DNA of 27,532 nt from a virus, in IMG/VR virus record IMGVR_UViG_3300032267_000311, positions 1 to 27,532 of that record; one strand, 5' to 3'. Position numbers and translations under genes: made by a program. Below, in pieces: positions 8,729 through 26,597 of the stretch. The notes under the pieces are model-generated. The model made no database searches and was not told where the DNA came from. It saw only the letters and a list, made by a program, of their open reading frames with translations. Numbering within the stretch: position 1 is the first letter of the stretch; every line of letters begins with the position of its first letter.

Positions 8729-8750
8729 GGGGGGTGGGGGGTGGGTGGGG
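8729..8750 (+). other. Potential G-quadruplex
   Basis: Four G runs of 6, 6, 3 and 4 are joined by single T residues, which is the pattern of a very stable parallel G-quadruplex in the plus strand or its transcript. Further G runs at 8756-8760 and 8763-8765 continue the cluster. Folding is predicted from pattern only. Confidence 0.55.
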
Positions 8751-8765: not shown

Positions 8766-8782
8766 CTGGCACGAAAATCGCA
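8766..8782 (+). promoter_or_regulatory. Candidate sigma-54 (RpoN) promoter of the early arm
   Basis: The sequence CTGGCACG, then AAAA, then TCGCA matches the -24/-12 consensus YTGGCACG-N4-TTGCW at every position but one (TCGC for TTGC). The key GG (8768-8769) and GC (8780-8781) are exactly 12 nt apart. Transcription would start near 8793, ahead of the palindrome at 8811 and the gene at 8860. No enhancer-binding protein gene is seen in the window, so a host activator would be needed. No sigma-70 promoter of comparable quality is obvious here. Confidence 0.45.
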
Positions 8783-8810
8783 TATATCTGGCTTGGGCAC
8801 ACTTACGCCT

Positions 8811-8837
8811 AACTCGCGGACATAGTGTCCGCGAGTT
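8811..8837. repeat. Palindrome copy 1 (12-bp arms, 3-nt loop)
   Basis: Arms AACTCGCGGACA and TGTCCGCGAGTT are perfectly complementary around the loop TAG. It lies 23 nt ahead of the first early gene, downstream of the sigma-54-like site. Only TTT follows, so it is a poor terminator and more likely an operator, RNA processing site or stability hairpin. Related 25-nt copies occur at 9564-9588 and 11022-11046. Confidence 0.8.
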
Positions 8838-8859
8838 TCAACCCGACGGAGATGATGAG

Positions 8860-9462
8860 ATGGAATCGAACCAAAACGAAGCGACGGCGTTGGCCGTCGC
8901 ACTCGACCAAGCGGCAGAGCAAGTGACGGATACCGCGCAAGTAGACGAAAGGGCGATCTTTGCATTGTTCGACACAATGTCGAATGCGACGCAAGCCGCG
9001 CGCGATCAGATCCGCGACCTACGGATTGCGGATCGTGACACTTGCCTGAGTTTCCTACAAAGGTGGGCTTGCGTACGCTACGGCTTGACGCTGACGGAAG
9101 GGCAACGCGGATCGAAATTCGATCCAAACCCACTAGCCGCCCAAATCAGCGCACGAAAGATCGTCAACGGCGAACCCGGGAAGCTAGTAGCTGAGCATGG
9201 GTTGGATCCACACTTGGCCGTGATGACGGTTCAACAAGCCGCGTTGAAACAAGCCGAAACGCAATGCGATTCGGCCGCGCGTCAAATTCGACGAATGCTT
9301 AACGATCTTTTCGACGAACCCGAAAAGAACCCTAGTGGTAAGGCAAAACAGGATGAGGTGGCGCGGCTTTTGAAGGCCATTGCGAAACTGGAATCCGATT
9401 CTCTCAATCGACTGGAATCAGGGATTGACAAGATCAAACGGGAGCGTAACGCAAGCAAGTAA
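8860..9462 (+). CDS. Hypothetical early protein, 200 aa
   Basis: I do not recognise this protein. It starts MESNQNEATALAVALDQ at an ATG preceded by GGAG at good spacing; a longer frame from 8722 would translate the G-rich control region and is rejected. The product is highly charged and helical: an acidic N-terminus, a central part with CLSFLQRWACVRYGLTLTEG (about 62-81) and KFDPNPLAAQISARKIVNG, and a C-terminal basic coiled-coil-like helix (about 150-200) ending KIKRERNASK. It has no membrane segments. It is the first gene of the rightward arm, right after the candidate promoter and palindrome copy 1, and is followed by a hairpin and terminator cluster, so it may be a separate early transcript. 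Host takeover or regulation is a guess from position. Confidence 0.7.
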   Translation: MESNQNEATALAVALDQAAEQVTDTAQVDERAIFALFDTMSNATQAARDQIRDLRIADRDTCLSFLQRWACVRYGLTLTEGQRGSKFDPNPLAAQISARKIVNGEPGKLVAEHGLDPHLAVMTVQQAALKQAETQCDSAARQIRRMLNDLFDEPEKNPSGKAKQDEVARLLKAIAKLESDSLNRLESGIDKIKRERNASK

Positions 9463-9480
9463 TCCAACCCGATCCACGCT

Positions 9481-9508
9481 ACCCGCCCGGGGTTTACCCC
9501 GGGCGGGT
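9481..9508 (+). terminator. GC hairpin 1 of overlapping hairpin chain
   Basis: Arms ACCCGCCCGGGG (9481-9492) and CCCCGGGCGGGT (9497-9508) are perfectly complementary around TTTA and are followed by TTT. It lies 18 nt after the stop of the 200-aa early gene. Its right arm shares 9504-9508 with the left arm of the next hairpin, so the two cannot form together. Confidence 0.7.
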
Positions 9509-9547
9509 TTTCGTTTGTCCGCGTTTTCGTGGACAAACGAAAACCCG
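9504..9547 (+). promoter_or_regulatory. Long perfect hairpin 2 (17-bp stem)
   Basis: Arms CGGGTTTTCGTTTGTCC (9504-9520) and GGACAAACGAAAACCCG (9531-9547) pair perfectly around a 10-nt loop. No T tract follows. It overlaps hairpin 1 on its 5' side, while AAACCC (9541-9546) can alternatively pair with GGGTTT (9553-9558) on its 3' side. Such mutually exclusive stems just before a terminator resemble an attenuator, though no leader peptide is obvious. Confidence 0.6.
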
Positions 9548-9563
9548 ACATTGGGTTTGAGCG

Positions 9564-9594
9564 ACTCCCGGACATATTGTCCGGGAGTTTTTTT
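9564..9594 (+). terminator. Rho-independent terminator built on palindrome copy 2
   Basis: Arms ACTCCCGGACA (9564-9574) and TGTCCGGGAGT (9578-9588) are perfectly complementary around TAT and lead straight into a run of seven T (9588-9594). This is a canonical intrinsic terminator. Compared with palindrome copy 1 the arm change G to C is matched by a compensating C to G in the other arm, so the pairing is conserved while the sequence differs. Confidence 0.88.
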
Positions 9595-9638
9595 GTGGCA
9601 ATGACGCGCGAGTCGCGTCGAACGTGGAGCGTAGAACG

Positions 9639-9845
9639 ATGAAGGACACATACGAAGTATTGAGCGAAGGGCGTGCGCGCCATGACTGGCGTTACACAGT
9701 CAACACAGTTGACCCAGACTTCGACATTCGATCTGAGATTGAGTTCGCGGATCGAACGAAGAGCGAAGATGATCTGTACGGTCTGACCATCGTCGAGTTC
9801 GACGACGAGTTCGATGCGCGCGCATGGTTGAAGGGGCGTCTATGA
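9639..9845 (+). CDS. Hypothetical small acidic protein, 68 aa
   Basis: I do not recognise this protein. It reads MKDTYEVLSEGRARHDW and is acidic, with a C-terminal stretch TIVEFDDEFDARAWLKGRL. The chosen ATG at 9639 follows GGAG (within GTGGAGCG) at about 9 nt; an in-frame ATG at 9624 lies before that site. Its stop overlaps the next start (ATGA, 4 nt). It lies 45 nt after a strong terminator, so it would need read-through or its own promoter. Size and acidity are like small phage early proteins that bind host enzymes or mimic DNA, but that is not shown. Confidence 0.62.
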   Translation: MKDTYEVLSEGRARHDWRYTVNTVDPDFDIRSEIEFADRTKSEDDLYGLTIVEFDDEFDARAWLKGRL

Positions 9846-10054
9846 ACGACGAGCATTTACCCATCTGCGTGTCGTGCTACTCGGTGCGCGTTGAGTATGG
9901 GCGGCGGCGTATGCCGCGCCCGACTTGCATGTCGTGTGGCGAACGAGAAGCGCGTAACGTGCGGCACACAGTTGTGCCCATGAACAAGTCGAACTACGTG
10001 CACGTACGTGACATTAGTTTGCTGACTCAACTTAACCCAAAGAGAACGACATGA
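9842..10054 (+). CDS. Small zinc-ribbon-like protein, 70 aa
   Basis: The product begins MNDEHLPICVSCYSVRVEYG and has two CxxC pairs, CVSC (about residues 9-12) and CMSC (about 29-32), the spacing of a zinc ribbon or treble-clef finger. The remainder is basic with many Arg and Val. Its ATG overlaps the previous stop (ATGA) and its own stop overlaps the next start (ATGA), so three small genes are coupled. Such short four-cysteine proteins in phage early regions often bind nucleic acid or host transcription proteins; which applies here is unknown. Confidence 0.65.
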   Translation: MNDEHLPICVSCYSVRVEYGRRRMPRPTCMSCGEREARNVRHTVVPMNKSNYVHVRDISLLTQLNPKRTT

Positions 10055-10140
10055 GAGTGCCAAATTGGTTGTGGGGTTTCGTCTACGGCATGGCCTTTGC
10101 CGTAGTTCTCCATTACGTATTATGGAGTCCTTGTTGTTGA
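10051..10140 (+). CDS. Very small membrane peptide, 29 aa
   Basis: The frame ATGAGAGTGCC... ends at TGA 10138-10140 and gives a peptide starting MRVPNWLWGFVYGMAFAVV and ending WSPCC. Residues about 5-25 form a single hydrophobic, aromatic segment long enough to cross the inner membrane. Its ATG overlaps the stop of the zinc-ribbon gene by 4 nt (ATGA), the same coupling used by its neighbours, which is the best argument that it is translated. There is no strong own Shine-Dalgarno site. Function is unknown; small phage membrane peptides can act in superinfection exclusion or host inhibition, but I have no specific evidence. Confidence 0.5.
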   Translation: MRVPNWLWGFVYGMAFAVVLHYVLWSPCC

Positions 10141-10458
10141 AAAACAACAAAAGTTTGGTGGTCCACCATTCCGACGTTCTGTGCGAGCGCACAGGACGCT
10201 GGAATGGCGTGGATTCATGCGGCTTTCAGGCGTCCACCCCCCCAGAAACCTACGTATATATATATAGTTTTTTCCAAAAGATATATATATGTATGTGTAG
10301 CCGGACACGCTCGCGCGCAACTTGCGCTTTTCCGTTTGCCGTGGCACTCTTTTAAAAACGTAGGTATACGCGGGGGTAACACCCCCAACGCTAGTGTTCA
10401 TGCGGGTTAGTTTATGTCCACCTATAGTGGACCACCTTGCGAAATGGAGGACCACCTG
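10141..10458 (+). other. Structured non-coding leader region
   Basis: No convincing gene fits in this 318-nt stretch, but it holds many inverted repeats. They are: an 8-bp stem TTGTTGTT/AACAACAA at about 10130-10149; a long stem at 10163-10212 (CCAC-CATTCC-CGTTCTGTGC against GCACAGGACG-GGAATG-GTGG); an AT hairpin at 10256-10290; ACCTACGT (10248-10255) pairing with ACGTAGGT (10358-10365) around it; GGGGGT/ACCCCC at about 10373-10387; and GTCCAC/GTGGAC at 10416-10432. GGTGGTCC at 10157-10164 can pair with GGACCACC at 10429-10436 or 10449-10456, the latter touching the Shine-Dalgarno site of the next gene. It may be a regulatory leader or a small RNA. Confidence 0.6.
10163..10212 (+). ncRNA. Long stem-loop, possible structured RNA
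   Basis: A 50-nt element folds as CCAC (10163-10166) and CATTCC (10167-10172), a 2-nt internal loop, CGTTCTGTGC (10175-10184), tetraloop GAGC, GCACAGGACG (10189-10198) with one G-T wobble, a 2-nt internal loop, GGAATG (10201-10206), a GC bulge and GTGG. About 20 base pairs is far more than chance would often give. No T tract follows, so it is not a standard terminator. Confidence 0.5.
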
Positions 10459-11067
10459 ATGAAGCAATGTGGACAATGTAAAACCTTTTACAAGGCTAGT
10501 GCGTTCCGTGTGCGGCTCTCAAAGTTGGCGTCTGAGGGGCGCGGACTATACGACGGGCGCAGACTCACCATGGAGATGTCAATCTGTAGACAATGCAGAC
10601 CCAAGCCTCGACCGTACACAGCCATGACGGAGCGCGAACTCAACACGCTGGTGCTATCCCGGGATATCACCCGTGAGTTTGCCGATGGCATCCTGCGAAC
10701 CCGCGCCACACACGCAAGGCGCAAAATGTCCACGGCGGTGAACAAACGCTGGGAACGCGAACGACTGGCGCGTGTGAAGCCTGCGCTCGACCTGTGCTCA
10801 GTAGAACGCAGAGCGGTGAAGGACCAGCTACGGTACGCAACGGAGAACGGCAAGGAACGTGTCATTGCCTTCTGTGAAACGTATCTGCAAGTGATTGACG
10901 AGTACGCCAAACAAGTGCGCGACTCTAAAAAGATACACGACATACCCTCGGCAACGCGGGCGTGTGTGTTAGCCGCATGGCATGCGTGTGATAAAGCGCG
11001 CGGACCCATGCTTTTCAGCCAACTGGCGGACATCCTGTCCGCGAGTCAACAACCGGAGAGCGATTGA
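10459..11067 (+). CDS. Hypothetical zinc-finger protein, 202 aa
   Basis: I do not recognise the family. From the ATG at 10459 the protein begins MKQCGQCKTFYKASAFRV and carries a two-part cysteine motif, CGQC (residues 4-7) and CRQC (about 43-46), resembling a zinc ribbon; the rest is basic and helical with RRKMSTAVNKRWERERLARV in the middle. The start is fixed by a perfect GGAGG at 10446-10450, 8 nt before the ATG; an ATG at 10414 lacks such a site. The leader carries several hairpins. Palindrome copy 3 lies inside the last codons. Its stop overlaps the next start by 1 nt. Nucleic acid binding is likely from the finger and charge, but the role is unknown. Confidence 0.7.
   Translation: MKQCGQCKTFYKASAFRVRLSKLASEGRGLYDGRRLTMEMSICRQCRPKPRPYTAMTERELNTLVLSRDITREFADGILRTRATHARRKMSTAVNKRWERERLARVKPALDLCSVERRAVKDQLRYATENGKERVIAFCETYLQVIDEYAKQVRDSKKIHDIPSATRACVLAAWHACDKARGPMLFSQLADILSASQQPESD
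11022..11046. repeat. Palindrome copy 3 (inside coding sequence)
   Basis: Arms ACTGGCGGACA (11022-11032) and TGTCCGCGAGT (11036-11046) pair around TCC with one mismatch. The length of 25 nt and the CGGACA/TGTCCG core equal those of copies 1 and 2. It lies 20 nt before the start of the next gene although it encodes the end of the zinc-finger protein (LADILSAS). Confidence 0.65.
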
Positions 11068-26318: not shown

Positions 26319-26597
26319 ATGGCATATTCACAGAAACTTATTGATGAGGTAGCCGCCGCTCCCAAGACGCTGGGTAACCAGCTAGGGCGGTGGGCTATTC
26401 ACCGGGACTTCTCCGTCCTGCGGGTGGCGCACATTACTGGTGCGTCTCGACAGTCTGTATACAACTGGTTTAGTGGCGGAGAAGTTTTCGTGGCGTACAA
26501 ACCTATAGTGGAGGCGTTGATTAAGATCTTAAAAGCCAACGTCGATCCTGACGTTGCGCACGAAGAAGCATGCAAGGCATTCAAGATAAACCCGTAA
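26319..26597 (+). CDS. Helix-turn-helix protein, 92 aa
   Basis: The product starts MAYSQKLIDEVAAAPKTLGN. Residues about 19-52 (LGRWAIHRDFSVLRVAHITG and ASRQSVYNWFSGG) fit an Xre/Cro-like helix-turn-helix in which the recognition helix is ASRQSVYNWF. The C-terminus is helical (KPIVEALIKILKANVDPDVA). Such proteins near SSB in phages act as small regulators. There is no ribosome-binding site between the GC hairpin and the ATG, so its translation may be low or depend on the fold of the leader. It is only a candidate regulator, not a clear CI-type repressor. Confidence 0.7.
   Translation: MAYSQKLIDEVAAAPKTLGNQLGRWAIHRDFSVLRVAHITGASRQSVYNWFSGGEVFVAYKPIVEALIKILKANVDPDVAHEEACKAFKINP

Follow-up and report, generated by a model that had tools for sequence, protein, structure and literature searches.

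Here, we describe a set of short palindromes in a viral DNA of 27,532 nucleotides (nt), IMG/VR record IMGVR_UViG_3300032267_000311 (positions 1 to 27,532; the window), together with the small protein, encoded by gene A, that probably reads them. In the window, the structural genes are oriented leftward; starting at about 8.8 kilobases (kb), the genes of a replication module (an AAA ATPase, a phrog_1314 protein, a PolA-type polymerase, and others) are oriented rightward. The palindrome ACTNNCGGACANNNTGTCCGNNAGT has three exact copies in the window (P1, P2, and P4; Table 1); allowing up to 3 mismatches gave no additional match, and 100 dinucleotide shuffles gave none. The initial annotation, which had reported three ACTNNCGGACA-N3-TGTCCGNNAGT copies and considered them more than chance, was correct on both points. 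Its description of the single copies also holds: copies 1 and 2 are perfect stems with 11-base-pair (bp) arms, each copy lies 20-50 nt ahead of a gene start (distances in Table 1), copy 2 precedes a TTTTTT run and was scored as a terminator, and copy 3 is inside a coding sequence, at the 3' end of a 217-amino-acid (aa) open reading frame (ORF), gene D. Of the compensating arm changes it described, one pair stands, as copies 1 and 2 (CG/CG vs CC/GG) differ by a single flipped pair at position 5; the rest of the arms does not bear out the claim, and copy 3 has a single mismatch, G opposite G, at position 4.

Table 1. Early-region features of the window
Feature	Position	Strand	Description
TGGCACGAAAATCGCAT, sigma-54-like element (GG-N10-GC)	8767..8783	+	putative early promoter
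Palindrome P1 (copy 1)	8812..8836		leader; 23 nt ahead of the gene A ATG, behind the putative early promoter
Gene A	8860..9462	+	first early gene, 200 aa; putative cognate DNA-binding regulator
Terminator-like hairpin	9481..9508	+	strong, GC-rich; between gene A and P2
Palindrome P2 (copy 2)	9564..9588		downstream of gene A, 50 nt before next ATG; with following T6, an intrinsic-terminator-like hairpin
Gene D	10414..11067	+	217-aa ORF with CxxC pairs; conserved across all site types
Palindrome P4 (copy 3)	11022..11046		within last codons of gene D; 20 nt before next ATG

An exact scan of IMG/VR for the site of the window returned 19 contigs, 18 of which share many proteins with it. Long contigs (63-66 kb) carry 3-6 copies within about 5-6 kb and none elsewhere, all in the stretch between the terminase side and a MoxR-type ATPase gene. 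Relatives were also gathered by their terminase (574 confirmed in IMG/VR, the best 80 of which were used), and overall these have 2-6 copies per genome, clustered in the early control region only. Position is conserved as well: the place of P1 is matched in L006, L008, L013, L014, L017, L018, L019, and L022, that of P4 is kept among relatives, and nearly all sister site types have a copy behind the gene A stop. In 84,980 bacterial and archaeal genomes (257 Gb), there were 17 matches, mostly in Clostridia and at chance level, and none was multi-copy; a host-borne repeat was therefore rejected. Since the bacterial matches are all single-copy and the array is limited to one lineage, we regard the palindromes as a phage element that is confined to a single region. 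This agrees with the earlier suggestion of a phage-specific repeat, and the further copies found at conserved positions in relatives speak against a chance occurrence. The palindromes are most likely repeated docking sites in the early-gene region of a large family of uncultured water phages. Named phages (HTVC027P, HTVC023P, DSL-LC04, and others) are at most 52% identical in terL, have no match to A or D, and show a different early layout in their annotated terL regions. Some contigs were set aside: L012/G008, with a single copy and no proteins in common with the lineage, was treated as chance; contig 3300045996_002259, which lacks A and has its three TGTGGTCA copies scattered, lies outside the lineage; and G006/L010 (23.9 kb), an inverted duplicate with mirror-symmetric copies, was taken as an assembly artefact and counted once. 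Contig 3300032304_000327 (L072-L073; 23,884 bases) is an inverted self-duplicate about its midpoint, probably an artefact of assembly or amplification.

In the same region, sister phages have another palindrome, which is of one type throughout a given genome and occurs in 2-6 copies. Among the best 80 relatives there are at least 12 types, including GGGTCA-N3-TGACCC, GGGGAAC-N2-GTTCCCC, GGGGAC-N2-GTCCCC, GGGGACTNAGTCCCC, GGGGACA-N3-TGTCCCC, AGGGACA-N3-TGTCCCT, GATTCA-N3-TGAATC, TGTGGTCA-N2-TGACCACA, TGTGGAGA-N2-TCTCCACA, and CAGGAACACGTGTTCCTG; those of L102 and G029 are even-centred perfect palindromes. Near relatives of the window (G023, G026, and L085) have CGGCAA-N3-TTGCCG palindromes in pairs, spaced by about 32 nt, before the first gene. 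Across types, the copies occupy corresponding places: near the start of gene A, just behind A, at about 1.8-2.3 kb, behind D, and before the next operon segment. Because every genome has one shared type, the sites switch type in concert, and a concerted switch of all copies suggests a single trans-acting reader in each phage.

What might this reader be? The best candidate is the product of gene A, whose stop is usually followed by a site within about 30 nt (about 105 nt in the group of the window). Two phages with different sites, L156 and L126, are 99% identical in D, 100% in the small ORFs, 94% in TerS, and 90% in terL, yet only 69% in A; L096 and L102 are 100% identical in terL, with 77% in D and 65% in A; and G020 and G027, which have the same site, are 100% identical in A. 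When only pairs with a terL identity of 95% or more are compared, the median fraction of identical A residues is 0.81 for the same site (n=41) and 0.16 for different sites (n=49), as against 0.88 and 0.58 for gene D. Of 36 phages, 34 share their site with the nearest neighbour by A, 32 with that by D, 27 with that by TerS, and 25 with that by terL, both exceptions for A being between similar site types. On maximum-likelihood trees, the minimum number of site changes is 11 for A (the lowest possible for 12 types), 12 for D, 13 for TerS, and 15 for terL. In a blind test, for which IMG/VR was scanned with two other site patterns only, the 18 contigs newly found with copies in a cluster all had a matching A (18/18), whose stop precedes the site by 3 nt; single-copy contigs had no A, one giving a weak, distant match far from the copy.

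The computations thus establish an array with conserved positions, a concerted change of type, and co-inheritance with gene A. Most likely, the sites and the gene A product co-evolved, and related phages carry different sites with matching versions of A. The initial annotation had offered an operator family, and a protein of the early region that may bind it; both suggestions are well supported, since the type switches in concert per genome and tracks the first early gene. Several CGGACA phages have P1 within the coding region of gene A; there, the motif ADxxSAS is encoded GCG GAC ... TCC GC(G/C) AGT, and in L117, which has CTGACA sites, the same residues are encoded GCT GAC ... TCA GCC AGT. 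This points to a site that is maintained within gene A through synonymous codon choice, i.e. to selection on the DNA sequence.

The A protein is 120-150 aa long in most phages and about 200-230 aa in the group of the window. Searches of Pfam, PHROGs, and NCBIfam gave no significant match for it, and its profile found nothing at E<=1 among PDB sequences; nameless in those three collections, the family appears to be a previously undescribed regulator. AlphaFold2 models of two A proteins have helix-helix-helix-hairpin cores (mean pLDDT, the predicted local distance difference test, of 80 and 83), with a winged-helix-like core at about residues 30-88 in the A of the window and, in CGGACA-type proteins, GQRG in the hairpin turn. 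On these models, A is likely a winged helix. The best Foldseek match is non-significant (E about 0.7), weak PDB matches including the winged-helix repressors MarR and DtxR, and structure comparison gave a VIA Z of at most 4.5 with unrelated top rows.

Two other candidate readers were considered and rejected. Gene D, whose homologues align from its second ATG (about 10459) and whose end lies in or just before a palindrome, is 99% identical across the site change between L156 and L126; G021 and L005 have CGGACA sites, yet their D is closest to that of TGTGGTCA phages. A 92-aa helix-turn-helix (HTH)-like protein (26319-26597, next to the primase) was discarded, as its identity is not in step with the site type, being 74% to G023/G026, which have another array, vs 60-63% to CGGACA phages. 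This protein is conserved in long relatives (53-74% identity), and a weak second copy is present in G021 (51952-52164).

Around gene A, other elements are conserved too. The putative early promoter of the window has the form TGGCACG-N4-T[C/A]GCAT and is conserved within the sub-group of the window upstream of P1 and gene A, with GG-N10-GC retained in 9 of 9 distinct members and L014 varying beside the GC. Sister types lack this sigma-54-like element and have instead a sigma-70-like extended -10 (e.g. TATAATAGANGCATCGGTT). Further upstream is a G-rich, G-quadruplex-like run (8729-8750, GGGGGGTGGGGGGTGGGTGGGG); most relatives have a similar block (GGTGGGGGTAGGGTGGGGTC) about 160 nt upstream of gene A, the strict pattern occurring in 36 of 61. 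Behind gene A, the stretch 9481-9546 holds the strong terminator and a second long inverted repeat (GTTTTCGTTTGTCCGCGTTTTCGTGGACAAACGAAAAC), kept in close relatives. Phages of the TGTGGTCA type have a T6-bearing terminator-like hairpin between the promoter and gene A (17591-17609 in L167), an attenuator-like place, and similar hairpins are visible in the leaders of G021, L005, and G029.

In our view, the palindromes are probably a double-stranded DNA operator array for the gene A product, which would most likely repress the early operon. We infer that A binds the sites, that its target is DNA rather than RNA, that it acts as a dimer, and that the outcome is repression. An A dimer would read two inverted half-sites 2-3 bp apart. 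Its targets would be P1, close to the promoter of A itself, and P2 to P6, where one gene of the early operon meets the next. At P1 it would limit initiation from the early promoter and at the inter-gene sites it would block RNA polymerase, as stoperator-like roadblocks, while P2 in many phages would also be an intrinsic terminator just behind gene A. Site and A would have changed together many times, leaving each phage type with its own A/site pair.

The alternative that the palindromes work at the RNA level, as hairpins of the early transcript to which A binds for antitermination past P2 or for blocking translation of the next gene, accounts for sites just behind the A stop and ahead of ribosome sites, and for a P2 that is terminator-like in many types. 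It also has precedents in the N-boxB specificities of lambdoid phages and in the dual DNA/RNA binding of Aca2, which show that phage regulators can read matched hairpins. However, in the TGTGGTCA, TGTGGAGA, GGGTCA, and GATTCA types, P1 is upstream of a putative conserved -10-like element, which would place it outside that transcript if this promoter is correctly assigned. The 62 distinct CGGACA-type copies gave a divided answer on covariation: position 5 stays paired in 60, as G-C, C-G, or A-T, whereas pairs 1-3 (ACT/AGT) are fixed per half with no covariation beyond shuffling, and at position 4 A.C mismatches are as common as G.T. The loop is variable, and the even-centred perfect palindromes of L102 and G029 also fit a hairpin poorly. 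The covariation pattern is more in line with two half-sites read independently than with a helix, and we consider A-bound RNA hairpins unlikely. An RNA processing site, as the initial annotation had also entertained, finds no support in the same observations, and no palindrome matched an Rfam family at gathering score. Given the pairing at position 5 and the fact that P2 doubles as a terminator, the sites may additionally function as hairpins.

A dedicated protein might not be needed at all if the sites, alike through copying, were common terminators or hairpins for processing of the RNase III type. Copy 2 and its counterparts do have T-runs, and T7 has processing hairpins between its early genes, but a T-run is found at only about one copy per genome, and the uniform core within a genome, its concerted switch between types, and its tight linkage to A alleles make this explanation very improbable. 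We give equally little credence to the idea that A reads a parS- or iteron-like element for DNA maintenance or replication: multiple matched sites, diversified specificity, and the conserved G-rich block beside the array would suit it, but the sites are 0.3-2 kb apart at gene ends, some are terminators, and no ParA-type ATPase was found in eight long contigs.

Several points weigh against an operator array read by A. The compensating flips at pair 5 are explicable by a hairpin. Gene D correlates with site type almost as well as A does, which we ascribe to its linkage to A. The DNA-binding fold of A is a reading of predicted topology, because the PDB matches are non-significant. Because P1 lies upstream of the promoter, in the leader, or in the coding region depending on type, a single uniform repression geometry is unlikely; G017 has no P1, and A may be an activator rather than a repressor. 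In the G023/G026/L085 group, gene A was not found, and gene D is kept. Site types were grouped by eye, and the contigs are metagenomic.

The closest system in working to an operator array read by A is the Rep/stoperator system of cluster A mycobacteriophages (L5, Bxb1), in which the repressor has numerous sites, mostly in short gaps between genes but in part at promoters, and site consensus and repressor diverge together between types, giving heteroimmunity (PMC6550527, PMC9283540). Stoperators are 13-bp, asymmetric, oriented with transcription, 20-30 in number genome-wide, and bound by a two-domain monomer (PMC6550527, PMC9283540). In our lineage, site type and the putative regulator A likewise diverge together, but the sites are palindromes of 16-25 bp, number 3-6, all lie within an early region of about 5-6 kb, and would be read by a small protein from the first early gene. 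The array would thus work like stoperators but is not a member of the cluster A system, because its sites are neither asymmetric and oriented nor 20-30 genome-wide. The A profile had no match among PDB sequences (E<=1), nor was there one in Pfam, PHROGs, or NCBIfam, L5 gp71/Rep itself not being directly compared. Integrase, resolvase, and ParA (PF00589, PF00239, PF13614) had no match in eight contigs of 50-66 kb, the completeness of which was not rated; lysogeny is thus not indicated.

Streptomyces phage phiC31 has a large repressor that reads conserved inverted repeats in early intergenic regions. By this general description, it resembles our lineage in having repeated palindromes in the early region, and it differs in being temperate and in the size of its repressor. 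Coliphage N4, known for its hairpin promoters, resembles our lineage in a podovirus-like genome of 60-70 kb and in a few hairpins with 3-nt loops in its early region; in our lineage the loops are not conserved, and the giant virion-module protein carries an LPD38 domain (a 2960-aa ORF at 1218-10097 in L061, where it adjoins the primase end of the replication module). A T7-type RNA polymerase (PF00940) had no match in the lineage, a weak negative since control genomes were silent too. Aca autorepressors are small phage regulators that bind inverted repeats and repress their own anti-CRISPR operon, in many families with a repeat each, using one or two promoter repeats and known HTH domains (PMC9410906). 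Unlike these, A has no known-HTH match and 3-6 sites along the operon. We found no described dispersed palindrome system of this kind in the open literature, which is weak evidence of novelty.

The lineage offers at least 12 naturally matched pairs of putative regulator and operator, several of them in nearly identical genomes, which makes it testable how a regulator and all of its dispersed sites shift specificity together. It is also large, with more than 570 terminase-bearing relatives in IMG/VR and a regulator family that is still nameless, and A/site pairs would serve as orthogonal gene-control parts. The diversification of sites and A may reflect competition among co-infecting kin. More tentatively, and at less than even confidence, A would represent a new family of DNA-binding regulators that repeatedly switched specificity, with early shut-off as a type-specific weapon against co-infecting kin, an immunity without lysogeny. 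If A does shut off kin, immunity types would evolve in phages that show no sign of lysogeny.

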